From assembly GCA_003132505.1 (NCBI GenBank), contig PKXY01000044.1, positions 1-64,000 on the forward strand: 64,000 nucleotides of DNA, read 5' to 3'. A program made the translations under genes and the position numbers. The DNA comes from Solirubrobacterales bacterium. Lineage in GTDB: Bacteria; Actinomycetota; Thermoleophilia; Solirubrobacterales; Solirubrobacteraceae. Below the pieces are notes generated by a model, which did not search any database, was not told the origin of the DNA, and worked only from the letters and a program-made list of their open reading frames with translations. Within the stretch, counting starts at the first letter, position 1. Every line of letters begins with the position of its first letter. Shown here piece after piece: positions 28,477-47,571 of this stretch.

Positions 28477-30194
28477 CTTGCGACCCCTGCCTTGAGCGTG
28501 TCGTAGTCCAGCCTGTACTTTTGGGCCAGTGCTGCGGCGTAGGCGCGCCCATCGGCGGGGCGCCGCTCGAGCTTGAACGTCCGCATCGTCGGATCGCCCG
28601 GATCGACCATGCTGGTCATGCTGACGATCTTCTCGTTCAGCGACGCGAGCTCGTCGACGAATGTGACGTACACGCACAGAAGGTCGAGCTGTGTGATCCG
28701 CTCGAGCACCTTCGCTCCGAGCAGACGCGCGTCCTGCAGTGTCGTCGAGCCGAAGCTCTCGTTCATGATGATGATGCTGTTCGGCGTCGCCACCTCGAGG
28801 ATCTCGTGGATCCGGTAGAGCTCGTCTTCGAGCTTGCCGCGCAACGTCGCGAGGTCCTCCTCCCGCTCGAAGTGGGCGAACATCTGGTCGAAGAGGAAGA
28901 GCTGCGCTTCATTGCCGGGCACCTGACAGCCGAGCGCGGCGAGGTAGTGGAGCTGTCCGAAGGTCCGCGCGAATGTCGTCTTGCCGCCATTGTTGGGGCC
29001 GGATACGACGAACACGCGCTCGCGGTCGTCGAGCTGGAAGTCGTTGCAGACCACGGTTTCGTCGTCGCCTGAGAGCTTGTCAGCGAGCGCGATGTCGAAG
29101 GCGTCGCGTGCCCGGATTGCCTTCGAGCCGTCGGAGACCCGCGGATAGCAGAAGCGCAGTGCTGGGCGCTCGAGGCGCTCGAGGTACTCGCGGTAGGCGA
29201 CGTAGAACTGGATCTCGCGGTCGAAGGTCAGGATCGTCGGATCGGTGTACGCGCTGGTATTGGCGCAGTACTCCTGGAGCGCGCGGAAGGGCTCGGGGTG
29301 GATGCGCGCCACGAGGTCGAGGACCTGTGCTTCGACGTGGTTCATGTCCGCCGGTCCGGCGGGGGACGCGACGCGGTAGTCCTTGACGGCGCCCTGCTTG
29401 AAGCGCGCGAACGTCTCGTCGACCTCGGCGCCCTGGTCGGCCTGGTCGTTGTAGCTGGTCACGGTGATGCGGTTGCCCTTGATGTGAAGGTTGTATTGGA
29501 GTCCAACGAGGTCGTTCGCGACCTTGGTTGTCTGCTCGACGAGCGTGGTGAACGCCGGCGAGGTGGCGTAGCTGAGGAGGTAGACGCGAAAGGCAAGCAT
29601 GCCGTGCGACCTGAGGCGTGCTTTGCTCAGGTCGCCAGCAAGGCACTTGACGGCGTCGCAGTAGTCCTCGACGGCTCTCAGGTACCAGCGCTGCTGCTGC
29701 CGCGCGAAGTGGAGCTTGCCGACGAGCGCGCGGTGTCTGCGCATCCACCGCAGCTTCGTGGCGAACGAGCGGATGTCGTCGAGCACTGTCTTGTTCTCGA
29801 GGTCGCGGAAGACTTCGTGGCGGTAGTTGATCGTCGCGACGCTGTGAAGCGGCGCCCGGTAAAGCGGCACGAGGTCGTATTCCTCGCGACCTTTGGTGAT
29901 CGAGCCGACGACGCGGTCGAGCTGGAGATCAGCGAAGAACGCTGGAGTGGCAGCGTCGTCCACGCCAGCAGTGGGCTCAGGCTGATCGAAGAGGATGCTG
30001 CGAAACACCGACGGCGCGTCGCGCGGCGTTTTCGCGGCTGCGAGGCGCGTCGCGCCGGCTCGCGGTGTCGCGGCACGCCCGTTCGCTTCGGACGCTCCGC
30101 GGTGGCTTGCGGGAGGCGCTGCTGCGCGACCGGACTCGCTCACGAATGACCTCGCGGTTCGGTAGAGGCCATCAGCGCGGCAGTGCGCAGACAA
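28473..30194 (-). CDS. MutS-related ATPase (first gene of pair); exact start uncertain
   Basis: VFVVSGPNNGGKTTFARTFGQLHYLAALGCQVPG...SIIIMNESFGSTTLQDARLLGAKVLERI; overlaps next gene by 4 nt. Confidence 0.85.
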   Translation of the reverse strand: MSAHCRADGLYRTARSFVSESGRAAAPPASHRGASEANGRAATPRAGATRLAAAKTPRDAPSVFRSILFDQPEPTAGVDDAATPAFFADLQLDRVVGSITKGREEYDLVPLYRAPLHSVATINYRHEVFRDLENKTVLDDIRSFATKLRWMRRHRALVGKLHFARQQQRWYLRAVEDYCDAVKCLAGDLSKARLRSHGMLAFRVYLLSYATSPAFTTLVEQTTKVANDLVGLQYNLHIKGNRITVTSYNDQADQGAEVDETFARFKQGAVKDYRVASPAGPADMNHVEAQVLDLVARIHPEPFRALQEYCANTSAYTDPTILTFDREIQFYVAYREYLERLERPALRFCYPRVSDGSKAIRARDAFDIALADKLSGDDETVVCNDFQLDDRERVFVVSGPNNGGKTTFARTFGQLHYLAALGCQVPGNEAQLFLFDQMFAHFEREEDLATLRGKLEDELYRIHEILEVATPNSIIIMNESFGSTTLQDARLLGAKVLERITQLDLLCVYVTFVDELASLNEKIVSMTSMVDPGDPTMRTFKLERRPADGRAYAAALAQKYRLDYDTLKAGVAR

Positions 30195-30342
30195 AGGCGA
30201 GCCTCATCGCCTATCGACAACAGGATACAAGGTCGGTCGCGGTAGCAGACAGTGCTGCAGCGGGCCGGTGGCGTGACCGGTGACTCGCCGCCAGCAGTGA
30301 AGTGATGCTCGCGGACGCGAGAGCGGAGATCGAGAGTGTTGA

Positions 30343-31722
<1,380 letters not shown>

Positions 31723-32508: not shown

Positions 32509-32606
32509 CCCCGCGGAGTACGCGCTGAAGTCCGCGTTATGCCGGTAGCCCGGACGATGACTTCTACCTCGACAACGAGCGTGGAGTCCTTCGACCGGAG
32601 ACGTAC

Positions 32607-33554
32607 GTGGACTACGTCATACAAGTCCTACAGAGCGCCGTGGTGCTCTTCCTGGCGCCCCTTTACACGGGCGCGATCGCTCGCGCCGAAGCAATCGTGC
32701 AGTCGAAACGCGGCCCGAGCGTGCTGCAGCCGTACCGCGACCTCGCGAAGCTGCTGCGCAAAGGCAGCGCGACCTCGGAGGACGCGTCGTGGATCTTCCG
32801 TGGCGCCCCGTTCGTAGCGTTTGCGTGCTACCTGACAGTGTCGGTGATCGTGCCGGTGATCACCGACGAGCCGCTCCCGCTCGCGTTCCTCGCCGACCTG
32901 ATCGGCGGCGCGTTCGTGCTCGGGCTAGCGAGCTTCGCGATCTCGCTCGCGGCGCTCGACACCGCCAGCCCGCTCGGCGGCCTGGGGGCGAGTCGCACGA
33001 CCTGGGTCGGCAGCTTCGCCGAACCGGCGCTGATCCTCGTCTTCTTCACCGTCGGCGTGCTTTCGGCATCAGACAACCCCTACCTGATGAACCACGCGCT
33101 CGCGCACTCGCCGGATGCCCTGGTGCTGCCGACACACATCCTCGGCGCGATCGCGTTCTTCATGATCGTGCTCGCCGAGAACGGAAGGATCCCGATCGAT
33201 AACCCAGCCGGGACGATCGAGATCTCGATGATCGAGGAAAGCCGCGTGCTCGAGTACTCCGGCCGTGAGTACGCGCTCGTGAAGTGGGGCGGCTGGATGA
33301 AGGTCTTCCTGATGTCCGCGATCTTCATGAACGTGTTCGTGCTCCCCTGGGGTCTCGGCGGCGCCAGTGACCTCGGGAGCGCGCTGCTCGGGATCCTCGC
33401 CCTCGCCGGGAAGCTGATCGTCTGCGGTACCGCGATCGTGATCGTCGACAGCTCTTTCGCGAAGCTGCGCTTCTTCCGCATCGCCGAGTTCCTCGGCGCG
33501 GCGTTCCTGCTCGCGCTCGTCGGCGTGGCGACCTCCTACGTGATCGGAAAGTGA
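32607..33554 (+). CDS. Ehr module 1: HyfC/HycD/NuoH-like membrane subunit
   Basis: LFLAPLYTGAIARAEAIVQSKRGPSVLQPYRDLAKLLRKGS...ILAENGRIPIDNPAGTIEISMIEESRVLEYSG. Confidence 0.9.
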   Translation: MDYVIQVLQSAVVLFLAPLYTGAIARAEAIVQSKRGPSVLQPYRDLAKLLRKGSATSEDASWIFRGAPFVAFACYLTVSVIVPVITDEPLPLAFLADLIGGAFVLGLASFAISLAALDTASPLGGLGASRTTWVGSFAEPALILVFFTVGVLSASDNPYLMNHALAHSPDALVLPTHILGAIAFFMIVLAENGRIPIDNPAGTIEISMIEESRVLEYSGREYALVKWGGWMKVFLMSAIFMNVFVLPWGLGGASDLGSALLGILALAGKLIVCGTAIVIVDSSFAKLRFFRIAEFLGAAFLLALVGVATSYVIGK

Positions 33555-33557
33555 GCG

Positions 33558-34232
33558 ATGGAGGGCCTGTCGTCCCTGTCGACTGAGGGGGTCCTGCTCG
33601 ACCTCGCCGCGGTCGTGATCCTCTTGTGCGCGTTCGCCTGTCTGGGATCCAAGCTCTTCGACCGCTACGTCGCCTATTACGGGCTGCAGTCGCTGACGCT
33701 GGCGTTTGCGGCGGGCGTCGTCGCTCAGCACAACGGCGAGGCGGGGCTGTGGGTGTTGGCCGCGATCACGTTCGCACTCAAGGGCGTGGCGATCCCACTG
33801 GCGACGCGGCGCTTTCTGCTCGAGCGCTTCCACCTCAACCGTGATGTGGCGCTGTCCACCGGTCTGTCGCGCTCGCTGATCGTCGGCGCAGCGCTGACGG
33901 TGTTCGCCTATCTGACGATCGGGCGCGGCGAGATCGGCGTCGCGCTCGTCGCGCGAGCGGTCGTGCCGATCGCCGTCGCGGTCATCCTGCTCGGCGGGCT
34001 GTGCATGGTCGTGCGCCGTCACACGATCGCCCAGCTCATCGGCTGGCTGATCATCGAGAACGGCGTCTTCCTCGCCGCGATCGCGACGATCGCGACGTTC
34101 CCGTTCATCGTCGAGGCCGGCGTCTTCCTCGACCTCGTCGCCGCCGTGCTGATCATGATCACGTTCGTCTCCGGCTTGGCCCACCAGCTCGCCGAGGCCA
34201 GCGCAACCGAGCTGCGTCAGTTGAGCGAGTGA
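33558..34232 (+). CDS. Ehr module 1: HyfE-like (NuoK-like) membrane subunit
   Basis: YVAYYGLQSLTLAFAAGVVAQ...ITFALKGVAIPLATRRFLLERF...GWLIIENGVFLAAIA. Confidence 0.85.
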   Translation: MEGLSSLSTEGVLLDLAAVVILLCAFACLGSKLFDRYVAYYGLQSLTLAFAAGVVAQHNGEAGLWVLAAITFALKGVAIPLATRRFLLERFHLNRDVALSTGLSRSLIVGAALTVFAYLTIGRGEIGVALVARAVVPIAVAVILLGGLCMVVRRHTIAQLIGWLIIENGVFLAAIATIATFPFIVEAGVFLDLVAAVLIMITFVSGLAHQLAEASATELRQLSE

Positions 34233-35716
34233 CGATCGCGCTCGCACTCGCCGTCGTCGGGCTGCCGCTGCTGCCCGCGCTGCTCGCGATCTTCACCTCC
34301 CGCGCGCGGCCGCTCGGCTTCACCGCCACCGCCGCCGGCTTGCTGACGCTCGCGGCGGCGATCGTGCTCGCGGTGCGCCTCGCGGGCGGGCATCACACAC
34401 ACGCGCTGAGCGGGTTCATCTCGCTCGACGCGCTGAGCGGCTTCTTCGTCTTCACGATCTCCGTGGTCGTCGCGCTGGCGAGTTTCGGCTCGGCCGCCTA
34501 CCTGCGTGCCGAGGAGGAGCGCGGCGATCTCAGACCACTCCAGGTCCGGCTCTACTTCGTCTTCTTTGCCCTGTTCGCGTCGCTGATGCTGGCCTCGTTC
34601 GAAACCGGGAACCTCGGCCTGCTGTGGGTGCTGATCGAGGCCAGCACGCTCGCCAGCTGCGTTCTCGTCGGACTCGAGGCCAAAGCCGTCTCGCTCGAAG
34701 CGGCTTGGAAGTACATCATCATCAGCTCGTTTGGCGTCACGATCGCGCTGGCCGGCACGTTGTTCGTCTACTACGCGGCCGGCGGCCTCCAGGGATCACC
34801 GACCGAGCACCTGACCTGGTCCTTCCTGTTCGCGCACGCGAGCGCGCTGCACCACGACAGCCTGCGGCTGGGGTTCCTCCTGATCGTCGTCGGCTACGGC
34901 ACGAAGGTCGGGTTGGCACCGATGCACACCTGGCTGCCCGACGCGCACTCCGAGGCACCAAGTCCGGCCAGCGCGATGCTCTCCGCGGCGCTGCTGAACA
35001 CCGGCATGTACGCGATCATCCGCTTCCAGGCCCTCGCGGGCATCGGGCTCGGCCGACACTACCCCGGGGACGTGCTGCTCGTCTTCGGATTCATCTCGAT
35101 CGTCATCGGCGTGCTGTTCCTCGTGCTGCGCGGCAACTTCAAGCGGATGTTCGCCTACTCTTCGGTCGAGCACATGGGCATCATCGCGGTGGCCCTCGGC
35201 TTCGGCGGCACGCTCGGGTTATACGGCGCGCTGCTGCACACGCTCTGTCACGCGGTCGGCAAGGCGGTGCTCTTCCTGACCAGCGGGGACCTCGTCTTGC
35301 GCTACCGCACGCGTCTCGTCGACGACGTCCGCGGCGTGCTCGGGGTGATGCCAATCACCGGCGCCGCGCTGCTGCTCGGCGCGCTCGCGGTCACCGGCTC
35401 ACCGCCCTTCGGCCTCTTCCTCAGCGAGCTGACGATCGTGCGCGCCGGCTTCGCCGCGTCGAGCCCCGTGCTCGTCGGCCTGCTCCTGCTGCTGCTCGTC
35501 GTCGGCTTCATCGCGTTGATGCGCGCCGCCACCGGCATGGCGCTCGGTGCGCCGCCGAATAACGGCGTGACCACCGTCGCCTACGCCGAGCGCAGCGGTC
35601 GTCTGCTGGCGGCCACGCCGCTCGTCGCCGGACTCTGCGGGCTGCTGGTTCTCGGCGTCTGGATTCCCGGGGGCCTCAACACGCTGATCACCCATGCGAT
35701 CGGATCGATCACATGA
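34229..35716 (+). CDS. Ehr module 1: HyfF/NuoN-like antiporter-type subunit
   Basis: LLWVLIEASTLASCVLVGLEAKAVSLEAAWKYIIISSFGVTIALAG...GYGTKVGLAPMHTWLPDAHSEAPSPASAMLSAALLN...FAYSSVEHMGII. Confidence 0.92.
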   Translation: MTIALALAVVGLPLLPALLAIFTSRARPLGFTATAAGLLTLAAAIVLAVRLAGGHHTHALSGFISLDALSGFFVFTISVVVALASFGSAAYLRAEEERGDLRPLQVRLYFVFFALFASLMLASFETGNLGLLWVLIEASTLASCVLVGLEAKAVSLEAAWKYIIISSFGVTIALAGTLFVYYAAGGLQGSPTEHLTWSFLFAHASALHHDSLRLGFLLIVVGYGTKVGLAPMHTWLPDAHSEAPSPASAMLSAALLNTGMYAIIRFQALAGIGLGRHYPGDVLLVFGFISIVIGVLFLVLRGNFKRMFAYSSVEHMGIIAVALGFGGTLGLYGALLHTLCHAVGKAVLFLTSGDLVLRYRTRLVDDVRGVLGVMPITGAALLLGALAVTGSPPFGLFLSELTIVRAGFAASSPVLVGLLLLLLVVGFIALMRAATGMALGAPPNNGVTTVAYAERSGRLLAATPLVAGLCGLLVLGVWIPGGLNTLITHAIGSIT

Positions 35717-37230
35717 GCGCCCGGCAGACTACGGCGGGCCTGCCGCCCGCGTTTAGCGAGCTCGCGCCAGGGGTCAGCGGCGCACGGGTGAGGCCCGATC
35801 AGCTGGTCGCGATCACCAACGAGCTCGCCACGACGCACCCCGCCCGCCTCGCCGACCTGTTCGCGAGCGAGCCCCGGCACGGCGCGGAGCTGACGTTGCG
35901 CGCCGTGTACGCGCTCGACGACGCGGCCCGCTATGCGATCGTCGAGTGCCCCACGAGCGGCGATGAGTTCCCAGCCCTGTCGGACCTCGATCCGGCCGCA
36001 TTCGTCGAGGAGTGCGAGATCTACGAGCAGTTCGCGGTCCGTCCGGCGAACGACAAGCCGCTCAACCGCGTGCTGATCCCGCCGCACGCCGACGCGACGT
36101 TCCCGCGGCTGGGGCACCGCCCACGCCCGGAGCTCGAATCGCTGCACGCGCGCCACGTGGTCGAAGGGGAGGCGTTCGAGTTCCCGTTCGGTCCGGTCCG
36201 CGCCGCCGGCTGGGAGAGCCTCTACATGGGTCTCGTGACGACCGGCGAGGAGGTGCTCGACCTCTACCTCTTCCACTGGCACAAGCACCGCGGCATCGAG
36301 CGGCGGCTGGTCGGATTGAAGCCCGAGCGCGCGCTGTTCTTTGCCGAACGAATGGATGGACTGAACGCCGTCGGCAACGGACTGGCCTTCTGCCGCGCGA
36401 TCGAAACGGCGGCCGGCGCCAGGGTCGCCGCCGCCGCCGCGCACACGCGCTCGATCGCGCTCGAAATGGAGCGCATCTACAACCACGCGGCCGCGGTCGC
36501 CGCGACCTGCCAGACGACCGGCTTGTCGGTTGGCCAGGCGCGCGCCGAGATCGTGCTCGAAGAGCTGCTGCGGCTCAACGCCGCTGCCTTCGGACACCGC
36601 TACCTGTTCGACGTGCTCGCGCCCGGCGGCGTGCGTCGAGTCGGCGACGCTGACGCAATCCGCAAGCAGCTGCCACGCGCCTGCGGTGAGTTCCGCCGCG
36701 TCACCGAAGCGCTCCTGCGGACCAACTCGCACGTCGACCGGCTCGAGGCCACCGGGATGCTCACGCACGAGCAGGCCCAGCGCCTCGGACTCGTCGGTCC
36801 GGTCGCGCGGGCGGCCGGCTGCCCGATCGACTCGCGCGCCGACCACCCGTTCGCTCCCTACGACCAGCTGGAGCTCTCGCCGCCGGTGCGCGAGAGCGGC
36901 GACGTGCTCGCGCGGATGGAGGTGATGCTCGCCGAGGTCGCGGCCTCGGAGCAGCTCGTGCTCGAGCAGCTCGCCGATGCCGGGCCAGGGCAGATCGACG
37001 TGCAACCGCGCTCCGCCGCGGCGCTCGGCTGGGCGGAGTCGCCGCGCGGCGAGGCGCTGACCTGGGTTTCGTTTGACTCGCGCGGGGCAATCGAGCGCGC
37101 ACGCCTGCGCCCGGCATCGGTGCGCAACTGGCGCGCGTTCGATGACGCGGCCCGCGCCGAGAACGTGTTCACCGACATCCCGATCATCGAGGCCAGCTTC
37201 TGGCTGACCGTCGCGGGGTTCGCGCGCTGA
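35713..37230 (+). CDS. Ehr module 1: HyfG/HycE/NuoCD-like large subunit lacking NiFe ligands
   Basis: HKHRGIERRLVGLKPERALFFAERMDGLNAVGNGLAFCRAIE...EMERIYNHAAAVAATCQTTG...APGGVRRV; C-terminus TDIPIIEASFWLTVAGFAR without DPCxxC. Confidence 0.88.
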   Translation: MSARQTTAGLPPAFSELAPGVSGARVRPDQLVAITNELATTHPARLADLFASEPRHGAELTLRAVYALDDAARYAIVECPTSGDEFPALSDLDPAAFVEECEIYEQFAVRPANDKPLNRVLIPPHADATFPRLGHRPRPELESLHARHVVEGEAFEFPFGPVRAAGWESLYMGLVTTGEEVLDLYLFHWHKHRGIERRLVGLKPERALFFAERMDGLNAVGNGLAFCRAIETAAGARVAAAAAHTRSIALEMERIYNHAAAVAATCQTTGLSVGQARAEIVLEELLRLNAAAFGHRYLFDVLAPGGVRRVGDADAIRKQLPRACGEFRRVTEALLRTNSHVDRLEATGMLTHEQAQRLGLVGPVARAAGCPIDSRADHPFAPYDQLELSPPVRESGDVLARMEVMLAEVAASEQLVLEQLADAGPGQIDVQPRSAAALGWAESPRGEALTWVSFDSRGAIERARLRPASVRNWRAFDDAARAENVFTDIPIIEASFWLTVAGFAR

Positions 37231-37568
37231 TGGCGTTCTGGTTCTTCCGCGGGTTGGGAAAGGGCATCGTCACGACGCGCTACCCGAAGGCGATCGATCC
37301 GTGGACGAGCGCCTTGCCCACACCCCCGGCCTTCCACTCCGACCGCCTGACGATCGCGCTCGTCGACAGGCTGATCGAGGTCTGCCCATCGCGGGCCCTC
37401 GCGCGTGAGCACAACGAGCTGATCTTCGACGTCGGCGCCTGCAGCGCCTGCGAGCGCTGCGTGCAGGAAGGCGCCGGTGCGGTCGAGCACAGTGGCGTCT
37501 TTGAACTCGCGAGCACGCGCCGCGAGCACCTCCTCAAGCGCGTTCACATCGGCAGGGGCTCGGCGTGA
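37230..37568 (+). CDS. Ehr module 1: HyfH-like ferredoxin subunit, degenerate
   Basis: IVTTRYPKAIDP...LIEVCPSRALAREHNELIFDVGACSACERCVQEGAGAV. Confidence 0.8.
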   Translation: MAFWFFRGLGKGIVTTRYPKAIDPWTSALPTPPAFHSDRLTIALVDRLIEVCPSRALAREHNELIFDVGACSACERCVQEGAGAVEHSGVFELASTRREHLLKRVHIGRGSA

Positions 37569-38056
37569 CCGACGACGCGCTGGCCGCTGAGCTGCGTCGC
37601 CGGGCGCTCGCGCTGTTCGGGCGCAGCCTGCACATCCGCACGGTCGACACCGGCTCGTGCGCGGTCTGCGAGTCGGAGATCCGGCTGCTCTCAGCGCCAC
37701 CCTACGACCTGCACAGGCTCGGATTCTTCTTCACGCCGGCGCCGCGCCACGCGGACCTGCTGCTCATCACCGGTCCCGCCGTCCGCGCGATGGACACCGC
37801 GCTGTTGAAGACCTTCGAAGCCACGCCCGACCCGAAGGCGGTCGTCGCCGTCGGTGCCTGTGCGCTTGGCGGCGTCTACGAGGAGGATGGATTCGTCCAC
37901 GGCGCCGTCGATCGCGTTCTGCCGGTCGACGTCTACGTCCCAGGCTGTCCGCCGAGCCCGCTGGCGCTGCTGCACGGCCTGCTGGTCGCAGTCGGCCGCC
38001 TCGAGGAGCGCGTCGCCGCCCTCACCTTCGATCTCGCAGCGGAGGTCGAGCGGTGA
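37565..38056 (+). CDS. Ehr module 1: HyfI/HycG/NuoB-like subunit, N2-type cysteines intact
   Basis: RSLHIRTVDTGSCAVCESEIRLLSAPPYDLHRLGFFFTPAPRHADLLLITGP...VGACALGG...VYVPGCPPSPLALL. Confidence 0.9.
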   Translation: MTDDALAAELRRRALALFGRSLHIRTVDTGSCAVCESEIRLLSAPPYDLHRLGFFFTPAPRHADLLLITGPAVRAMDTALLKTFEATPDPKAVVAVGACALGGVYEEDGFVHGAVDRVLPVDVYVPGCPPSPLALLHGLLVAVGRLEERVAALTFDLAAEVER

Positions 38057-40068
38057 ACCAGGCGATCACCGACCTGGTCCTGGCGGCCGGCGCGGCCTGG
38101 GTGCTCGCGGCAGCCGTCGGTCTCGGTGCCGTCCGCGCGCTGTGGCTGCGCGCGGCGGCGCTGCTCTCGGGTCTCGGCGGCGCTTGCGCGGTCGTCGGCG
38201 GCGTCCTGCTCGCCGTCCACGGTCACGCGACCAACGTGAACCTGGGATCGAGCCTCGTCGGCGGCGCCAGCCTGCGATTCACGCCGCTCGCCGCGGCGTT
38301 CATCGTCCTGCTCGGCATCGTCGCCGTCGCGATCGCGCTGTACGCGCCTCGCTATCACGTTCCTGGGCGCGGCACTGCGGTCTACCTAGCCGTCTATAAC
38401 CTCGCGCTCGTCGCGTCGGCGATCGTGCTCGCGGCCGGCAGCGTCGTGACGTTCCTCGTTGCATGGGAGTCGATGGCGCTGTTCAGCTACCTCGTGATCC
38501 TGCGCCACCAGGAGCGCGAGGAAGTCGCGCGCGGCGCGTTCCTGTTCCTCGCGTTGAGCGAGATCGGCTTTGCGCTGATCGTCGCCGCGTTCGCGATCCT
38601 CGCGACCCAGACCCACACGCTCGACCTGGCCACGATCGCCGCGCGCGCCGGCCACATCGGCAGCGGCTGGCGCACCGCCGCATTCCTGCTCGCGCTGACC
38701 GGCTTCGGCTTCAAGGCCGGCGTCGTGCCATTTCACATCTGGCTCCCGGCGGCGCACCCGGTCGCGCCGGCCGACGGCTCGGCGTTCCTCTCGGGCCTCG
38801 TGATCAAGCTCGGCGTCTACGGGATCGCGCTGTTCAGCGTGACGCTGCTGCGCGGCGGTCCGGCGTGGTGGGGATTGGTGATGATGGGGCTTGGCGCGCT
38901 CTCGGCCGTGCTCGGCATCCTCTACGCGCTGATGGAGCGCGATCTCAAGCGCTTCCTCGCTTACTCGAGCATCGAGAACATCGGCATCGTCCTCGTCGCT
39001 CTCGGTGCATCACTGACGTTCGCGGCCTACCACCAGCGCGCGATCGCGACGTTCCTGCTGATCACCGCTCTCTACCACGTCGTCAACCACGGTGTCTATA
39101 AGACGCTCCTGTTCCTCGAGGCCGGCGTCATCGAGCACGCGACAGGCACCCGCGACCTCGACCGGCTCGGCGGACTGATCCGGCTCCTGCCGCGCACTTC
39201 GGTGATCTCGCTGATCGGCACGCTGGGGATCGCGGCCCTGCCGCCGCTAAACGGCTTCGTCACCGAATGGATGCTCTTCCAGGGGCTGTTCCAGGGTTTT
39301 CGCATCCCCAACCACACCGTCGGCATCCTGATCGTCGTCGCCGGCGCAGTCATCGCGCTGACCGCCGGCCTCGCGCTGAGCGCGTTCGCGCGCGCGTACG
39401 GGATCCCGTTTCTCGGTCGGCCCCGCTCCGAGGGCGCAGCACGCGCGCGGGAGCGTGGTCAGCCGATCGCCGGCCCGGCGTTGCTGGCCGTCACCTGCGT
39501 CTTTCTCGGTGTCGGCGCGCCGCTCGTCCTGACCGTCCTGGCCCGCGCGGCGCGGGCCGTCACGGGCGTCAATATTCACGCTGAGCTGCTCGTCCCCAAG
39601 CTCACGGTGATCCCAGCACACACGAACTTCTCCGGCTTCTCGCCGACCTACCTCGCCGTGTTCATCGTTGTCGTCGCCGCGGTTCCGATCCTGATCTACC
39701 TCGCCGGGCGTCCGCGGGCGGCGAGCCGCAAGGTGCCGGTCTGGGACGGCGGCATTCTCGCGTTCGAGGCGCGGATGCAGTACACGGCGACGACGTTCGC
39801 GAATCCGGTCCGGGTCACGTTCGACCCGCTGTACCGGCCGGCGATCGAGCTTCAGCGCGCATCGGACGAGCCTGCCGGACGCTCCGGCCCGGTGCACTAC
39901 GACGCTCGCGTGACGCCGATCTTCGAGCGTTTCCTCTACCGGCCCGTGGTCCGCTTCGTCGAGTTGCTGGCCCGAGCTGCGCGCCCGATCCAGTCCGGTG
40001 ACGTGAACCTCTATCTGCTTTACGTGCTCGTCGTAGTGATCGTCGCGTTTGCCATCTATGCGAAGTGA
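38053..40068 (+). CDS. Ehr module 1: HyfB/NuoL-like subunit
   Basis: FLVAWESMALFSYLVILRHQEREEVARGAFLFLALSEIGFALIVAAFAIL...GVVPFHIWLPAAHPVAPADGSAFLSGLVIKLGVYGI; 671 aa; GTG overlap. Confidence 0.92.
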   Translation: MNQAITDLVLAAGAAWVLAAAVGLGAVRALWLRAAALLSGLGGACAVVGGVLLAVHGHATNVNLGSSLVGGASLRFTPLAAAFIVLLGIVAVAIALYAPRYHVPGRGTAVYLAVYNLALVASAIVLAAGSVVTFLVAWESMALFSYLVILRHQEREEVARGAFLFLALSEIGFALIVAAFAILATQTHTLDLATIAARAGHIGSGWRTAAFLLALTGFGFKAGVVPFHIWLPAAHPVAPADGSAFLSGLVIKLGVYGIALFSVTLLRGGPAWWGLVMMGLGALSAVLGILYALMERDLKRFLAYSSIENIGIVLVALGASLTFAAYHQRAIATFLLITALYHVVNHGVYKTLLFLEAGVIEHATGTRDLDRLGGLIRLLPRTSVISLIGTLGIAALPPLNGFVTEWMLFQGLFQGFRIPNHTVGILIVVAGAVIALTAGLALSAFARAYGIPFLGRPRSEGAARARERGQPIAGPALLAVTCVFLGVGAPLVLTVLARAARAVTGVNIHAELLVPKLTVIPAHTNFSGFSPTYLAVFIVVVAAVPILIYLAGRPRAASRKVPVWDGGILAFEARMQYTATTFANPVRVTFDPLYRPAIELQRASDEPAGRSGPVHYDARVTPIFERFLYRPVVRFVELLARAARPIQSGDVNLYLLYVLVVVIVAFAIYAK

Positions 40069-40285
40069 CGTCGGCCGTAGCGGGCCGCTCCATACCCCCG
40101 CCGGGTGAGGCGCGTCCGGCTGATGAGCATGAGGGCGTCGTGACAGATCGACGGCCAGACGACACGTTATGATTTCGGCCGCATCAAAGCGGCGATGGAG
40201 TTCGCCGTGGCGTGTTCGCCGAATCGCCTGCTGGCTAATGGCTCCTGTTGCAAGGTAACCGCTGGTCTAGGAGCCACTGGATTCC

Positions 40286-41242
40286 GTGACATTGCCGCCA
40301 TGGGGAGCTCAGGTCTGTCAGGTCGCCGCGCTGCTGCTGTTCGCGCCCCTGATCAGCGGCGTTATCGCCAAGGCCGAGGCGCGCGTGCAGTCGCGCAGTG
40401 GCCCGCCGGTGCTGCAGCCGTACTACGACATCGCGAAGTTCTTCGCCAAGGAGTCGCTGCGTCCGAACACCGCCTCGCCGTTCTTTGAGCTGGCGCCGCT
40501 GATCGCGTTCGCCTGCTACTGCTCGATCGCGCTGCTGATCCCCGTGCTGACGAGCTTCCCGCTGCCGCTCGGGACGTCCGGTGACATCCTCGGCGGTGCG
40601 CTGTTGTTCGGGCTCGCCGGCTTCGTCACCGCGCTGGCGGGCGTCGACTCGGGCTCGGTGTATGCGGGGCTCGGGTCGAGCCGCACGCAGTCGGTCGCGA
40701 CGCTCGTCGAGCCGACGCTGATCTTCGTCTTCTTCACCGTCGCGCTGATCACCGGCACCGACCTGCCATACGCGCTGAACGCGACGCTCGCGCACTCCTC
40801 CGCGGAGTACTTCCGGCCGAGCCACCTGCTGGCCACGGCGGCGTTCTTCATGATGCTGGTGGTCGACACGGCGCGGGTGCCGATCGAGAGCCAGGGCTCG
40901 ACGCTCGAGTTCGGGATGATCGATGACGCCCGCCTGTTCGAGCACTCGGGGCCGGCGATGGCGCTGTTCCGCTGGAACGCGTCGATGAAGCAGTTCCTGC
41001 TCTACGTCGTTTTCCTGAACGTGCTGCTCGTGCCGTGGGGGCTGGCCGGGGATCGCGACGTCGGCGCGGTCGCCGTCGCCGTCGGACTCCTGCTCGCGAA
41101 GATGGCTGGCCTCGGCCTCGTGATGGTCGTGATCGAGTCGAGCTTCGCCAAACTGCGGCTGTTTCGCATCCCCGACTTCATGGGCGCGGGCTTCGTGCTC
41201 TCCGTGCTCGCGATCCTCGTCTTCTACCTCGCGAACGGATAG
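40286..41242 (+). CDS. Ehr module 2: HyfC/NuoH-like membrane subunit
   Basis: LLFAPLISGVIAKAEARVQSRSGPPVLQPYYDIAKFFAKESLRPNTASPFF...VDTARVPIESQGSTLEFGMIDDARLFEHSG. Confidence 0.9.
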   Translation: MTLPPWGAQVCQVAALLLFAPLISGVIAKAEARVQSRSGPPVLQPYYDIAKFFAKESLRPNTASPFFELAPLIAFACYCSIALLIPVLTSFPLPLGTSGDILGGALLFGLAGFVTALAGVDSGSVYAGLGSSRTQSVATLVEPTLIFVFFTVALITGTDLPYALNATLAHSSAEYFRPSHLLATAAFFMMLVVDTARVPIESQGSTLEFGMIDDARLFEHSGPAMALFRWNASMKQFLLYVVFLNVLLVPWGLAGDRDVGAVAVAVGLLLAKMAGLGLVMVVIESSFAKLRLFRIPDFMGAGFVLSVLAILVFYLANG

Positions 41243-41245
41243 GCG

Positions 41246-41917
41246 ACGCTTCCCACCCCACACCCCGACTTTGCGCACGCGCTCGCCGCGATCATCGCAG
41301 TTGCGGCGCTGCTCAGTGGTCTTGGGCTGCTCGCGATCAAGCAGGTCCACGAGCAAGTCCGCGTCTATGCCGTGCAGTCGGTGTTCGCCGCTGGCTACAC
41401 GTTGCTCGTTGGTGTCGATCGCGCGTCGCCGGCGCTGATCGTGCTGGCGGTCTGGACGGCGCTGATCAAGGTGATCGTGATCCCAGTCTCGATCGACCGC
41501 CAGATCACGCGTCAGCTGTCCGAGCACGAGGTACCGCTGGTCGTGCAGGTGCCGATGTCACTGCTGCTCGGCACCGCGCTCGCGGGCCTCGCCTACTGGT
41601 CGAGCTCCGTGCTGCCGATCCATGGCGCGCTGCTGCCGACGCCGGCGCTAGGGATGCCGATCGCGTTCGTGCTAGTCGGCTTCTTCTTCATGATCACCCG
41701 CCAGAACGCGGTCAGCCAGATCGTCGGGCTGTTGACGATCGAGAACGGGGTCTTTTTTGCGACCGTCGCGATCGCGCCCGGCCTGCCGTTCGTGATCGGC
41801 TTCCTGCTGCTGCTCGATCTGCTGCCGGCAGTGCTCTTTTACGGCGTCTTCGCGCGGCTCATTGCCGCTAGGACGAAGAGCACGAGCGTCCAGGACATGA
41901 CGGTGCTGCGGGGCTGA
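41246..41917 (+). CDS. Ehr module 2: HyfE-like subunit with apparent ACG start
   Basis: TLPTPHPDFAHALAAIIAVAALLSGLGLLAIKQVHEQVRVYAVQSVFAAGYTLLVG...; no ATG/GTG/TTG between the HyfC stop and the first TM in this frame. Confidence 0.7.
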   Translation, partial: TLPTPHPDFAHALAAIIAVAALLSGLGLLAIKQVHEQVRVYAVQSVFAAGYTLLVGVDRASPALIVLAVWTALIKVIVIPVSIDRQITRQLSEHEVPLVVQVPMSLLLGTALAGLAYWSSSVLPIHGALLPTPALGMPIAFVLVGFFFMITRQNAVSQIVGLLTIENGVFFATVAIAPGLPFVIGFLLLLDLLPAVLFYGVFARLIAARTKSTSVQDMTVLRG

Positions 41918-43381
41918 ATGGGCGCTTGGCTCGTGATCTGCCTTGCGTTGCCGGTCGCGGCAGCCGCCCTCTCGCTGCTGATCGGCGACCGGCGGGCGAG
42001 CGCGTGGCTGACCGCCGCTGCCGCGAGCGGAGCATTCGCGGGAGCTCTCGTCGCGGTGTTCGCCTACCACGCGTCGCGTGGCGCCTCGGCGTTCGGCGGC
42101 AGCATCCGCCTCGACGGTCTGAGCGGGGTATTCCTGCTCGCGGTCGCATTCGTCTACGCCGTAGTCGCGATCTACTCGGTCGGCTACCTGCTGCCCGGCA
42201 TCGGACACGTGCGACTGCGCCGCATCTACTGGCCGCTGCTGAACCTGTTCGGCTTCGCGCTCCTGGCGACGCCGGTCGTCAACAACCTCTGCGTCATGTG
42301 GGTCGCGGTCGAGCTGACGACGGTCGTCAGCGCGTTGCTCGTGACGAGCGAGGGCTCCGACCAGTCGCTCGAGGCGGGCTGGAAGTACATCGTCATGGGA
42401 TCGGCCGGACTCGCCATTGGCCTGCTCGGGATCGTCTTGATCTACGCCGCCGGCATCGCGACACTCGGTGATCACTACAGCCCCACGTTCACGACGCTGG
42501 TCGGCGCGGCGCCGCACCTTAACCGGGCGCTCGTGCACGTCGGGTTCGCGTTGGCGCTGGTCGGGTTCGGCACGAAGGTCGGGCTCGTGCCGATGCACGC
42601 CTGGCTGCCGGACGCGCACTCCGAAGGCCCGAGCCCGATCAGCGCAATGCTCTCGGGGGGGCTGCTGGCCGGCGCGCTGTACGCGGTGCTGCGGCTGGGC
42701 GCGATCGCGCAGGGCGCGGTCGGCGCCTCATACGTCCACGTCCTGCTGCTCGTGTTCGGTGTCGCGTCGCTCGTGCTCGCGGGGTTCTTCGCGCTGCGCC
42801 AGACCAACTACAAGCGCCTGCTCGCCTACTCCTCGATCGAGCACATGGGGATCATCTCGCTCGGGATCGGGATCGGCGGTCCGATTGCCGCCTACGGCGC
42901 GTTCCTCCACGTGATCGTGCACGCCGCCGGCAAGTCGTTGGCTTTCTTCGGCTCCGGCGGGCTGCTCAGCCGCTACAGGAGCCGCGAGGTCGACGACGTG
43001 CGAGGCGTTATGCGAGCCGCGCCTTTCACCGGCGTGATGGTCCTGCTGGGGGCGCTCGCGATCGCCGGGCTGCCGCCGTTTGGGATCTTTCGCAGCGAGC
43101 TCCTGATCGTCACGGGCGGCTTCTCACATTCGTCGTTCGCGATCGCCGGGCTGCTCGTCCTGTTCGCCAACGTCGCGTTTGTCGGGCTGTACACGACGTT
43201 CCATCGGATGGTGCTCTCGGGTGAGCCGCCAGTGGAGCCAGTGCGCCGCCGCGAACAGCCACTGATGGGTGTGGCGATGCTCGTGAGCCTCGCCGTGCTG
43301 CTGGTGCTCGGGCTGTGGATCCCCGGTCCGCTTGACCAGCTGCTGCACAGCGCCGTCGGCGTGATCGGGGGGCGCTCGTGA
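41918..43381 (+). CDS. Ehr module 2: HyfF/NuoN-like antiporter-type subunit
   Basis: MWVAVELTTVVSALLVTSEGSDQSLEAGWKYIVMGSAGLAIGLLG...FGTKVGLVPMHAWLPDAHSEGPSPISAMLSGGLLAGALYAVLR. Confidence 0.92.
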   Translation: MGAWLVICLALPVAAAALSLLIGDRRASAWLTAAAASGAFAGALVAVFAYHASRGASAFGGSIRLDGLSGVFLLAVAFVYAVVAIYSVGYLLPGIGHVRLRRIYWPLLNLFGFALLATPVVNNLCVMWVAVELTTVVSALLVTSEGSDQSLEAGWKYIVMGSAGLAIGLLGIVLIYAAGIATLGDHYSPTFTTLVGAAPHLNRALVHVGFALALVGFGTKVGLVPMHAWLPDAHSEGPSPISAMLSGGLLAGALYAVLRLGAIAQGAVGASYVHVLLLVFGVASLVLAGFFALRQTNYKRLLAYSSIEHMGIISLGIGIGGPIAAYGAFLHVIVHAAGKSLAFFGSGGLLSRYRSREVDDVRGVMRAAPFTGVMVLLGALAIAGLPPFGIFRSELLIVTGGFSHSSFAIAGLLVLFANVAFVGLYTTFHRMVLSGEPPVEPVRRREQPLMGVAMLVSLAVLLVLGLWIPGPLDQLLHSAVGVIGGRS

Positions 43382-44820
43382 TCGCGCCGCAAGAGCGCAC
43401 CGTCGACGCGAAGGGTCTCGCAACGGCGATCGAAAGCGAGCACGGCCGCCTGATGATGCTGTTCGCCAACGATCGCTCAGGGCAGCGCGAGCTGACCGCG
43501 CTCGTCGCGGGCCGCGACGGAGCTGTCGTTCGCCTGCGGGCAGCGTTGCCTCTACCCAGCTACCCCGCGGTCACACCGCGCGTGCCCGCGGCACATTGGT
43601 TCGAGCGCGAGATCCACGACCTCCACGAGATCGTCCCGGCGGGTCACCCGCGGCTCGAGCCGCTGATCCGCCATGACGACGGCCAGGCGACGCTCGCGGA
43701 CTCCGCGAGCGGAGAGCACCGCGGGGCTGAGCGCTTGCAGGGTCCTGGCGTGTTCCTGATCCCCTATGGCCCCGTCCGCTCGGGCGTGTTCGAGACCGCG
43801 CAGTTCCTTGTCCAAACCGGCGGTGAGAACGTCGCCTACTGCGCGCAGCGGTTGTTCTTCAAGCGCCGCGGCGCCGAGCGGCGGATCTGCGAGGTGCCGC
43901 TCGAGCTGGCGGTGCTCGTCGCCGAGCGCGTGTCGGGAACCTCGAGCGTCGCGCACGCACTCGCGTTCTCGCACGCTGTCGAGGCGCTCGCCGATACCGA
44001 GGTGCCGCCGCGCGCGCAGGCGATCAGGCGAATCCTCGCGGAGCTCGAGCGGCTCTACAACCATCTTGAGGTCACCGTCAGGGAGTGCGAGGACGCCTCG
44101 CTCGTCGTCGCCCAGGCGCAGTTCGCCGCCCTCAAGGAGCGCCTGCATCGCCTAGCGGCTGAGCTCGTCGGAAACCGTTTCCTGCGCGGCGCGATCGTGC
44201 CGGGCGGCTTGCGAATCGCGATTGCCACCGATGCGCTGGATCGGCTGGGCTCGCACCTGGGCGCCTGGCAGCGCGACTTCAGTGCCACCCTGACGGTGCT
44301 GCTGCGAACCGACTCGTTCCTTGATCGGCTCGTCAGCGCCGGGCCACTCGCGGCGCAGGACGTGCGCGATTTCGGCTGCGTCGGGCCGGTTGCGCGCGGC
44401 TCGGGCGCTGATCTCGACACGCGCCGCGACCTGCCCTACGACGGCTACCGCGACGTGCCGGTCGCGACGCACGACGGCGGCGACGCAATGGCGCGCATGG
44501 AGGTCCGCTTCAAGGAGATCGACGTCTCGCTCGAGCTGATCCACGAAGCGATCGGAACGCTGCCAGCCGACCGTGAGCTCCGCGGCGAGGTAGGCCCCTT
44601 CACCCGGAAGGAAGCGCTCGGCGCAGCGGAGTCGGCGCGCGGCGAGACGCTCTACTGGCTCGCAGCCGACGGGCCAGATCGCCTCGGATTCTGCAAGCTG
44701 CGAGCCGCGTCGTTTGTCAATTTCGGGATCTTCAACCGAGTGTTCGATGCGCAGGTGCTGACAGACTTCTCTTTCATCGAGCACAGCCTCGGGCTCTCGC
44801 CCGCCGGGTGCGACGGATGA
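43378..44820 (+). CDS. Ehr module 2: HyfG/NuoCD-like large subunit lacking NiFe ligands
   Basis: WFEREIHDLHEIVPAGHPRLEPLIRH...LAVLVAERVSGTSSVAHALAFSHAVEALADTEVPPRAQAIRRILAELERLYNHLEV; C-terminus TDFSFIEHSLGLSPAG. Confidence 0.9.
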   Translation: MIAPQERTVDAKGLATAIESEHGRLMMLFANDRSGQRELTALVAGRDGAVVRLRAALPLPSYPAVTPRVPAAHWFEREIHDLHEIVPAGHPRLEPLIRHDDGQATLADSASGEHRGAERLQGPGVFLIPYGPVRSGVFETAQFLVQTGGENVAYCAQRLFFKRRGAERRICEVPLELAVLVAERVSGTSSVAHALAFSHAVEALADTEVPPRAQAIRRILAELERLYNHLEVTVRECEDASLVVAQAQFAALKERLHRLAAELVGNRFLRGAIVPGGLRIAIATDALDRLGSHLGAWQRDFSATLTVLLRTDSFLDRLVSAGPLAAQDVRDFGCVGPVARGSGADLDTRRDLPYDGYRDVPVATHDGGDAMARMEVRFKEIDVSLELIHEAIGTLPADRELRGEVGPFTRKEALGAAESARGETLYWLAADGPDRLGFCKLRAASFVNFGIFNRVFDAQVLTDFSFIEHSLGLSPAGCDG

Positions 44821-45146
44821 TCCGCTGGTTCGCTCGAGGCGTCAGCCGTCGTCGGCTTACAACCCGCTACCCGCGCGTGCGCGAGCAGCCGCCGGCGGGC
44901 TTTCGGGCCCGCGTACTGCTGAACCTGGGGGCCTGCGATCCTAGCGACGGGGCGCCCTGCGCGGCGGTCTGCCTGCCCGCCGCGTTGGGGCTCGACGACG
45001 CCGGCCGCCTCGGACTCGATGCCGCGCGGTGCATCGGCTGCGGCCTGTGCGTCGAGGCGTGCCCGGCGGGGGCCTTAACGTTTGATCCCGGCTTCGAGCT
45101 CGCGGCGCTGACCCGCGAGCAGCTCATCGTGGAGGGCCGGCGGTGA
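44817..45146 (+). CDS. Ehr module 2: HyfH-like ferredoxin subunit
   Basis: GACDPSDGAPCAAVCLPAALG...AARCIGCGLCVEACPAGALTFD; ATG overlaps the preceding stop. Confidence 0.85.
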   Translation: MIRWFARGVSRRRLTTRYPRVREQPPAGFRARVLLNLGACDPSDGAPCAAVCLPAALGLDDAGRLGLDAARCIGCGLCVEACPAGALTFDPGFELAALTREQLIVEGRR

Positions 45147-45589
45147 CGACGCTCAGTGGCCCGTTTCGCCGCTCGCTGCACATCCGCCACGTCGATGCGG
45201 GCTCGGACGGCGCGATCGAGCAGGAGATCGCAGCGCTGCTGGGCCCCCACTACGACATGCAGCGCCTCGGCCTGTTCTTCACCGCGACGCCGCGCCACGC
45301 CGATCTGCTGCTCGTCACCGGACCTGTGACGCTGGCGATGCGGGAGCCGTTGTTGCGCACCTATGAGGCCATGCCCGAGCCGCGTGCTGTCGTCGCCGCT
45401 GGCACCGACGCGTGCAGCGGCGGCATCTGGCGCGGACCGGAAGTGCTCGGCGGCGTCGACCGCGTGCTGGCGGTCGACGTCTACATCCCCGGCGACCCGC
45501 CCAGCCCGATCGCGCTGCTGCATGGGCTGCTGCTCGCCGCCGGGCGCGTCACGCAGGTCGAGCCGCCACTGCGCGAGGTGAGCGCTTGA
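45143..45589 (+). CDS. Ehr module 2: HyfI/NuoB-like subunit that has lost N2-type cysteines
   Basis: RSLHIRHVDAGSDGAIEQEIAALLGPHYDMQRLGLFFTATPRHADLLLVTGP...GTDACSGG...VYIPGDPPSPIALL. Confidence 0.9.
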   Translation: MTTLSGPFRRSLHIRHVDAGSDGAIEQEIAALLGPHYDMQRLGLFFTATPRHADLLLVTGPVTLAMREPLLRTYEAMPEPRAVVAAGTDACSGGIWRGPEVLGGVDRVLAVDVYIPGDPPSPIALLHGLLLAAGRVTQVEPPLREVSA

Positions 45590-47571
45590 GCGCTCTTGCT
45601 GTCCTGATGATCATTGCCGGCGTTGGACTTGCGCTGGCCGCGCTGCTCGGCGGGATCGGCGCCGGTCGCACGGGCGCGTTGGTCGGCACCGGCGCGTCGC
45701 TCGCGCTGGCCGCCGCCGGCGCACTTGGGATCTTCGACGAGCGGCTCGTCTGGCGGCCGTTCGCGTGGTTCGCGCTCGGACGCGGCGGCGTGCAGATCGA
45801 TCCGCTCGCGGGGCTCTTTCTGATCGTCACTGGTCTCGTGGCGGCGCCGCTGTTCATCGGTAGTGCGGGCACGCGTCGCGTCGCGCTCGCGTTGCGCCCG
45901 GTGCTCGTGCTCTGCGTTGTCGGCGTCCTCATCGCAGATAACGTGTTCGAGTTCCTGATCGTCTGGGAGCTGACGGTTGTCGTGATCTACGCGCTCGTCA
46001 GCGCCGGCCGGGACGGCCCCGCAGCCGAGCGCGCCGCGGCGCTAACGCTCACGCTCGCGAAGCTCGGCGGCGCCGCGGTGCTCACCGGGCTCGTGCTGCT
46101 CGCGGCCAAGAGCGGGACCTTCTCCTTCGAGCAGCTGGCGCACTCGGCGCCGAGGCTCAGCGAGGTGGTGCGCGGTGTCTGCTTCGCGTTGCTGCTCGCC
46201 GGATTCGCCGTCAAGGCTGCGCTCGTTCCGCTCCAGACCTGGCTGCCCGCGGCATACGGCGAGGCCGACGCCGACAGCTCGGCATTCGTCGCTGCAATCT
46301 CGCTCAACGTCGCGTTCTACGCGATGCTGCGCGTCTGGTTCGGCTTCCTCGGGCACCCCGCGTTGTGGTGGGCGATCGTCGTGCTGCTGTTGGGTGCGGT
46401 GACGGCGCTCGTCGGCATCTTAGGCGGCGTGCTGCAGCAGGAGCTGAGGCGGTTCATCGCCTACTCCTCGATCGAGAACGCCGGCATCATCGTCGCCGAC
46501 CTCGGCATCGCCCTGATGGGCTCGGCACAGCATCAACCCGGCCTGATCGGACTCGGCCTGGTGGCTGCGACCTTCCAGATCGTCGCGCACAGCTTCGCCA
46601 AGGCCGGACTGTTCGCCGCCGTCGCGGCGGTCGAGCGCGGCACCGGCACCAGCGACATGGCGCGCCTCGGCGGTCTGTGGCGCCGCCTGCCGACTGCGAC
46701 GCTCGCGACGCTCTGCTGCGCCGGCGCGCTCGCCGCGCTGCCGCCGTTCAGCGGCTTCGTCAGCGAGTGGCTCGCCCTCGAGGGCCTGATGCAGGGCTTT
46801 CGCGTCGGCGGCACCATCTCGCACCTCGCGATGGCGCTCGCCGGCGCGATCCTCGCACTGACCGCCGGTCTCGCGGCGCTCGCGTTCGTGCGCGCGATTG
46901 GTATGACGTTCATGGGCATGCCGCGCGACGAGTCGATCCGCCCACAGCGCGAAACGACCTCGCAACGTACCGCGCTGCTCACGCTTGGGGCGGCCTCACT
47001 CGCCGTCGGCGTCGCCGCACCGTGGGTCGTCGACGTGCTGCAGCGAGGCACCGCTCCGATCGGCGGCAGCGCTGCGTACGGCCACATCAGCCAGCTCGGC
47101 TGGCTGATCGAGCCGGGCTATGCGAAGTTCGCCAGCATCAGCCCTACCGTCTTGATCCTGACCCTCACCGGCTTCGCCACGGGCGCCGCCTGCCTGCGCT
47201 ACGGCTTGCGGCGACGGGGCCGCACGCGCGTCGTGCCCGTCTGGGCATCGGGCGCCGCCACATCCGGCGAGCGCACGCAGTACACGGCGGTTGGCTACGC
47301 AAACATGGTCAGGGTCATCTTCAACGTCGTCTACCGCATCCGCACCCAGATCCACACGCACGGCGACCAGCGCTTCCCCGAGCGGCTCAGCGTCATCCAC
47401 GCCGAGCCGCGGATCTTCGACCCCGACTGGCTCTACCGCCCGATCACGGTCGCGTTCAACCGCACCGCCGAGCTCGTGCGCTATGTCCAAGCCGGACCGC
47501 TCGGCCTGTACCTGCTCTACATCCTCGTGGTCGTAGTGGTCATGCTCCTCGTCACCCCGCGGCTCGCCTGA
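45586..47571 (+). CDS. Ehr module 2: HyfB/NuoL-like subunit
   Basis: EFLIVWELTVVVIYALVSAGRDGPAAERAAALTLTLAKLGGAAVL...AALVPLQTWLPAAYGEADADSSAFVAAISLNVAFYAML; frame continues from 45412, functional start taken at the HyfI overlap. Confidence 0.9.
   Translation: MSALAVLMIIAGVGLALAALLGGIGAGRTGALVGTGASLALAAAGALGIFDERLVWRPFAWFALGRGGVQIDPLAGLFLIVTGLVAAPLFIGSAGTRRVALALRPVLVLCVVGVLIADNVFEFLIVWELTVVVIYALVSAGRDGPAAERAAALTLTLAKLGGAAVLTGLVLLAAKSGTFSFEQLAHSAPRLSEVVRGVCFALLLAGFAVKAALVPLQTWLPAAYGEADADSSAFVAAISLNVAFYAMLRVWFGFLGHPALWWAIVVLLLGAVTALVGILGGVLQQELRRFIAYSSIENAGIIVADLGIALMGSAQHQPGLIGLGLVAATFQIVAHSFAKAGLFAAVAAVERGTGTSDMARLGGLWRRLPTATLATLCCAGALAALPPFSGFVSEWLALEGLMQGFRVGGTISHLAMALAGAILALTAGLAALAFVRAIGMTFMGMPRDESIRPQRETTSQRTALLTLGAASLAVGVAAPWVVDVLQRGTAPIGGSAAYGHISQLGWLIEPGYAKFASISPTVLILTLTGFATGAACLRYGLRRRGRTRVVPVWASGAATSGERTQYTAVGYANMVRVIFNVVYRIRTQIHTHGDQRFPERLSVIHAEPRIFDPDWLYRPITVAFNRTAELVRYVQAGPLGLYLLYILVVVVVMLLVTPRLA

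Follow-up and report, generated by a model that had tools for sequence, protein, structure and literature searches.

What would a bacterium do with two complex-I-like gene clusters lying one behind the other? The stretch analyzed here, 64,000 nucleotides of a Solirubrobacterales bacterium (assembly GCA_003132505.1, contig PKXY01000044.1, positions 1 to 64,000, forward strand; below, the window), a soil actinobacterium, contains two complete seven-gene modules, module 1 at 32607-40068 and module 2 at 40286-47571, both in the order C-E-F-G-H-I-B. The genes, their order and the gap between them are as a sequence-only reading had described them. That reading took the pair for a divergent tandem duplication of Ehr-type genes, possibly the two halves of one larger complex. 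Its Ehr-like assignment held up, the split between the modules is congruent and double clusters exist elsewhere; the local duplication and the two halves were not supported. It overlooked the fluoride riboswitches, which proved decisive, as well as two genes next to the modules, for a MutS_V-domain protein and an enolase. The locus is probably a fluoride-defense island, in which module 2 would be a fluoride-induced, largely redox-dead ion transporter and module 1 a separate complex within the same response.

Fluoride riboswitches at the modules

The following riboswitch features were found in the window.

40182-40254, plus strand: fluoride riboswitch aptamer before module 2 (RF01734, 41.7 bits against a gathering threshold of 34, E 3.7e-8)
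40236-40276, plus strand: expression platform, a hairpin AUGGCUCCU...AGGAGCCAC hiding the C2 ribosome-binding site (minimum-energy fold; family covariation)
32512-32588, plus strand: decayed fluoride riboswitch before module 1 (RF01734, 13.5 bits at 32512-32573, E 0.24, below the cut-off)
30149-30220, minus strand: sub-threshold fluoride riboswitch before a MutS-like gene (RF01734, 30.9 bits at 30156-30220 against a gathering threshold of 34, E 4.2e-5; own model R1, 23.2 bits)

The module 2 aptamer sits in the gap between the modules and belongs to RF01734; its loop GGAGU pairs with GCUCC to form the pseudoknot. The minimum-energy fold of the window sequence includes the OFF hairpin. In the switch before module 1, the conserved AUG has C in place of its first A, and the site aligned with it in a sister genome (G002) reaches 33.4 bits. 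G002 has a third fluoride switch (L033:13884-13969, minus strand), and the gene behind it resembles a Na+/H+ antiporter, judged by sequence appearance only.

The switch across the family

At least 544 proteins related to the C subunit occur in the roughly 85,000 species genomes that were scanned, and the best 80 were retained, their loci ranked by similarity to C2. The gene order C-E-F-G-H-I-B recurs in practically all of the 80 loci that are long enough, in Actinomycetota, Chloroflexota, Eremiobacterota and Nitrososphaerota. The C gene is found at E <= 1e-60 in 16 of 396 sampled genomes of the phylum, and the family is therefore uncommon. Its cultured carriers include Conexibacter sp. S30A1, Humibacter albus DSM 18994 and Microlunatus endophyticus.

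A covariance model of the switch was built from 16 upstream sequences, with the aptamer pseudoknot excluded. It was used instead of a text pattern for the aptamer, which caught 60 of 86. At E <= 0.01 the model has a match no more than 450 bases upstream in 66 of 83 C genes (the 16 seeds included), and weaker matches precede some of the other 17. Eleven control Ehr clusters from the same bacterial order, with the gene order B-C-E-F-G-I, have no switch match at E <= 0.1. Rfam at gathering thresholds finds no switch in loci L027-L031, though switches are visible there by eye, and the 16-sequence model recovers them.

In the covariance model a strand CCUC pairs with the ribosome-binding site. Across 93 distinct switches, pairing reaches 94.9% in the pseudoknot and 97% in the helix with the Shine-Dalgarno (SD) sequence. 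Single positions co-vary in the loop, the 3' strand and the SD sequence: G-C-G occurs 43 times and A-U-A 14 times at one, A-U-A 63 times and G-C-G 12 times at another. This covariation is direct evidence, from sequence comparison, that the RNA has two states which exclude each other: the partner of the 3' strand is the aptamer loop in one and the ribosome-binding site in the other. No study of the complex under fluoride control was found in the open-access literature.

Gene content of the modules

The genes of the two modules are listed below. Type 1 modules retain the ligands of the N2 cluster in subunit I, and type 2 modules have lost them.

32607-33554, plus strand: C1, HyfC/NuoH-like membrane subunit (PF00146, 117 bits)
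33558-34232, plus strand: E1, HyfE/NuoK-like (PF00420, weak, 17.6 bits; position, homology to E2)
34229-35716, plus strand: F1, HyfF-type antiporter-like subunit (PF00361, 162 bits)
35713-37230, plus strand: G1, HyfG/NuoCD-like large subunit lacking nickel ligands (PF00346, PF00329; no CxxC)
37230-37568, plus strand: H1, NuoI/HyfH-like, ligands for one [4Fe-4S] only (four invariant cysteines, family alignment)
37565-38056, plus strand: I1, NuoB/HyfI-like, all four N2-type cysteines, type 1 (PF01058, 81.7 bits; GSCAVCE, GAC, PGCPP)
38053-40068, plus strand: B1, HyfB/NuoL-like antiporter-like subunit (PF00361, 164 bits)
40286-41242, plus strand: C2, HyfC/NuoH-like (PF00146, 117 bits)
about 41243-41917, plus strand: E2, HyfE/NuoK-like (lacks a canonical start; continues the C2 frame beyond one TAG)
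41918-43381, plus strand: F2, HyfF-type antiporter-like subunit (PF00361, 177 bits; best solved relative MbhH)
43378-44820, plus strand: G2, HyfG/NuoCD-like, no nickel ligands (PF00346; best solved relative HycE, 7z0s)
44808-45146, plus strand: H2, NuoI-like ferredoxin subunit (Fer4 matches)
45143-45589, plus strand: I2, NuoB-like, lacking N2 ligands, type 2 (PF01058, 73 bits; GSDGAIE, GTDAC, PGDPP; confident NuoB/HycG fold)
45586 or 45607 to 47571, plus strand: B2, HyfB/NuoL-like antiporter-like subunit (PF00361, 161 bits)

The gene junctions are mostly 4-nucleotide overlaps, as first described (7 of 12). Counterparts in the two modules are mutual best matches, with identities of 44% (C), 31% (E), 45% (F), 33% (G), 32% (H), 59% (I) and 34% (B).

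There is no ATG, GTG or TTG at the 5' end of E2. The C2 reading frame continues past a single TAG (41240-41242), and the first canonical start, 41372, lies within the conserved protein. This may reflect a point mutation, an ACG start (41246), readthrough or a sequencing error. C and E are fused as one protein in L028, L030 and L031, and in L066 E begins with GTG directly after the C stop. H and I are fused in most relatives and most type 2 loci (L028 8490-9341, L030 6637-7647); the window has two separate genes that overlap by 4 bases.

Redox sites lost and kept

As the sequence-only reading had proposed, both modules are Ehr-like: they are relatives of hydrogenase 4 and formate hydrogenlyase (FHL) that lack the nickel ligands, and they share with Ehr complexes the group 4 hydrogenase/complex I architecture and the Mrp-like antiporter subunits. 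Ehr complexes include Rv0082-Rv0087 and Mbx. Their definition follows PMC6349859. The modules differ from them in fluoride riboswitch control, in the C-E-F-G-H-I-B order and in the loss of N2 ligands in type 2, whereas in related genomes the Ehr clusters (B-C-E-F-G-I) have retained N2 and have no fluoride switch. Ordinary Ehr clusters (L034, L036, L038, L043, L044, L046) keep N2 and a C-terminal CYACxDR, half of the nickel site, and lack the N-terminal nickel cysteines.

In the modules, the C-terminal CxxC of the nickel site is present in none of 67 G sequences; its N-terminal counterpart is also replaced. Among solved proteins G2 is closest to HycE and I2 to HycG of FHL, and F and B score best with the HyfF and HyfB models; no tested subunit is above any NCBIfam model cut-off. 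By these sequence relationships the complexes descend from ancestors like hydrogenase 4 and FHL. In 2010 fluoride riboswitches were reported to be associated with 'formate hydrogen lyase' genes (Weinberg 2010, PMC2864571). The association was repeated later (PMC8004769, PMC11139923), and a 2024 review interprets it as a shift to fermentation (PMC11139923). The kinship with HycE and HycG would suit an FHL, or another H2/formate enzyme that shifts metabolism in this way, but such a function is very unlikely here. The reading as FHL and fermentation appears to be wrong for the family seen here because there is no nickel site and one large clade also lacks N2; FHL function proper is ruled out by the ligand loss. 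The sequence-only reading had seen no NuoEFG, formate dehydrogenase or hydrogenase maturation genes nearby, and no such domain occurs in 20 scanned non-module proteins of the window (a part of the open reading frames; the search for a formate dehydrogenase covered these proteins only). The modules thereby differ from Hyf and Hyc and, in the NADH-input subunits NuoEFG, from respiratory complex I.

The I subunits separate the two modules. By the N2 criterion of respiratory complex I, all four ligand columns are altered in module 2, while module 1 is intact. In 62 I sequences outside the window the N2 ligands are lost in 56, kept in 4 and intermediate in 2 (Rubrobacter). The type 2 columns are mostly D/E/D/S (56, 42 plus 7 D, 49 and 47 of 63), and in the window I2 one of these four residues is I. 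The AlphaFold prediction for I2 is a NuoB/HycG fold (pLDDT 91, TM 0.85), and this confident fold argues against mere pseudogene decay.

Other sites are conserved. The E/K/H/K/E residues at the proton-path positions of complex I are invariant in F (74 sequences) and B (61), and H has exactly four invariant cysteines in 55 of 55 sequences, enough for one cluster. Complementary loss of iron-sulfur ligands, from I in one module and from H in the other, is ruled out by the presence of the four H cysteines in every sequence. Since type 2 lacks the nickel site and the N2 cluster beside the coupling site, no known electron route reaches the coupling site. It is thus unlikely that the complex is redox-driven along another path, with electrons passing from H to an unknown acceptor and driving ion pumping as in a classical Ehr- or Mbx-like complex. 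The ligand set of H and the retention of N2 in module 1 and in archaeal relatives speak for such a path, but the loss of N2 in module 2 argues against the Ehr trait of a cytoplasmic redox reaction coupled to ion translocation. Mrp cation/proton antiporters have homologous ion-translocating subunits and need no redox reaction. They lack subunits like NuoH, NuoB, NuoCD and NuoI, whereas the modules have C, G, H and I.

Two types of module and their history

The split between module 1 and module 2 is identical in the five subunit trees that were built (C, F, G, I and B). Type 2 forms one group in each (support 91, 98, 95, 92 and 95) and has an SH-aLRT of 100 in a concatenated tree, and type 1 surrounds it as a grade. 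The deeper order is uncertain, since the trees of I and F contain long branches that meet. Module 1 groups with the type 1 clusters of the sister genome and of Acidimicrobiales, while module 2 lies inside the separate type 2 clade. These trees rule out a local duplication and show that the window pair is not a recent one; N2 was most likely lost once, early, in whole modules. On the same phylogenetic evidence, the window modules are old paralogues brought or kept together. Three observations speak against an assembly artefact, the other concern about the double arrangement: the modules are only 31-59% identical, comparable doubles exist in other assemblies, and G002 has module 1 alone (76-94% identity), flanked by mutS-like genes and an enolase.

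Six bacterial genomes with two modules were found, and all six have one N2-intact and one N2-less module. They are the window genome, G108 and G109 (Eremiobacterota-like), G101 (Chloroflexi), and G111 and G126 (Acidimicrobiales). Both types are on one contig in five of them (window, G101, G108, G109 and G111), although type 1 of G101 and G111 is split between two contigs and its joining is inferred. This pairing would fit a single hetero-complex, with the N2-intact module as redox drive and the N2-less module for transport. However, each type has a full set of seven subunits and is also found by itself: many genomes have only type 2, and G002 has only type 1. The doubles represent only about four independent lineages, and the chance that all would be mixed is up to 0.06 if the types are equally common. 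One joint complex seems improbable, slightly more so than the redox-driven complex above, and the halves proposed at first are not borne out. The repeated pairing of N2-intact and N2-less modules may reflect a functional partnership.

Nitrososphaerota archaea (G116, with three copies, L163, L164 and L165; L140 and L141) have N2-intact modules in the same order, with no switch detected before C.

Fluoride exporters and neighboring genes

Neither Fluc (CRCB) nor CLC (Voltage_CLC domain) was found in the window genome, and no module protein has a CRCB or Voltage_CLC Pfam match. Fluc is lacking in all four genomes of the window genus. It is present in 20 of 50 module carriers and 72 of 101 relatives (Fisher p 0.0003), a comparison that is confounded because most of the genomes are incomplete metagenome-assembled genomes of different taxa. 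Five carriers have neither Fluc nor any CLC. A clean mutual exclusion of Fluc and modules is ruled out, as many carriers have both.

These absences raise the possibility that the complex itself is a fluoride exporter. In that case fluoride or hydrogen fluoride (HF) would be moved out by way of the cavity that the lost active site has left between G, I and C, which would serve as the entry, and proton flow through B and F would drive the export. Type 2 would then belong to the complex I superfamily but work without redox chemistry, its emptied N2 site having become an acidic metal or fluoride site, and the conserved D/E/D/S residues could hold a hard, fluoride-binding metal ion. We consider this doubtful, though less so than the redox-driven and joint complexes. 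Fluc lies in the same gene cluster as a module in some carriers (L076), and the window I2 departs from D/E/D/S. The known cargoes of complex I relatives are cations and protons, not anions.

Two genes lie upstream of module 1.

28473-30194, minus strand: MutS_V-domain ATPase gene (PF00488, 62.9 bits; true start inside the open reading frame, after the riboswitch)
30454-31722, plus strand: enolase (PF00113, 397.5 bits)

Enolase, a fluoride-sensitive enzyme of glycolysis, is a main target of fluoride and is often controlled by a fluoride riboswitch (PMC11139923, PMC5533749). The one in the window is the second of the genome (the other is on contig C25), and in relatives with a single module, enolases 72-75% identical to it adjoin that module. 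Of the 80 loci, 31 contain an enolase, MutS-like or crcB gene; CrcB/Fluc genes adjoin 10 of the 80, directly after B in L076/L028. The locus thus shares its RNA class and its enolase and crcB neighbors with known fluoride riboswitch regulons (crcB, eno, uspA, ppaC; for example Enterobacter cloacae FRM, PMC5533749). It differs from them in having a complex-I-like complex as its main cargo and a switch that targets the ribosome-binding site. The MutS_V-domain protein scores far under the cut-offs of the MutS1 and MutS2 models; MutS-like genes are a recurrent, unexplained partner beside related modules. A gene for a NicO high-affinity nickel transporter lies downstream (53253-54428, minus strand), though the modules have no nickel site.

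Proposed role in fluoride defense

The fluoride-defense island that we favor would work as follows. Fluoride riboswitches bind Mg-fluoride. On the sequence evidence, a CUCC strand pairs with the C2 ribosome-binding site in the absence of fluoride and blocks translation; with Mg-fluoride bound, the same strand pairs with the aptamer loop and frees the site. The module 2 product has a membrane arm of B, C, E and F with intact ion-pathway residues, and a peripheral arm of G, H and I from which the nickel site and the N2 cluster are gone. It would be unable to pump by the electron-transfer mechanism of complex I and Mbh, and would therefore be an ion-coupled (secondary) transporter. Entry of HF would acidify and poison the cytoplasm, and module 2, once made, would restore the pH and ion balance by moving H+ or cations; a less certain task would be to extrude fluoride in exchange for H+. 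Module 1, an older N2-intact paralogue with a decayed switch of its own, may remain redox-coupled within the same response, and the two would form separate complexes rather than halves of one. Several reports are consistent with this. Isolated antiporter-like subunits of complex I conduct protons without redox chemistry (PMC11496545), Na+/H+ antiporter genes are common behind fluoride switches, and fluoride, which enters in the form of HF, makes the cell more acidic and reduces its proton-motive force (PMC11139923).

Several points weigh against this explanation. Module 1 retains N2, and its switch may be dead in the window strain. The covariance-model search found no fluoride switch before the archaeal C genes, and 16 of the 66 switch matches are the seeds of the model. 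Type 2, which occurs alone in most loci, is over-represented among the 80 because they were ranked by similarity to C2. The complex could still have a redox or sensing role, because H has one [4Fe-4S] ligand set in every sequence. Invariant residues of G and I beyond the lost ligands suggest that the peripheral arm still has some specific role.

As far as the open-access literature shows, the new elements are a cargo other than FHL, the clade lacking N2, a translational switch with a traceable SD swap, and the repeated pairing of two ancient types. 'Formate hydrogenlyase' has been listed among fluoride-riboswitch genes since 2010 without explanation. A complex I relative that has the proton pathway but lacks the electron wiring is a natural test of redox-free complex I function. 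The modules are also candidate fluoride-tolerance genes, and fluoride tolerance limits the degradation of organofluorine compounds. If type 2 does export fluoride or HF, it would join Fluc and CLC-F as the third kind of fluoride exporter in bacteria.

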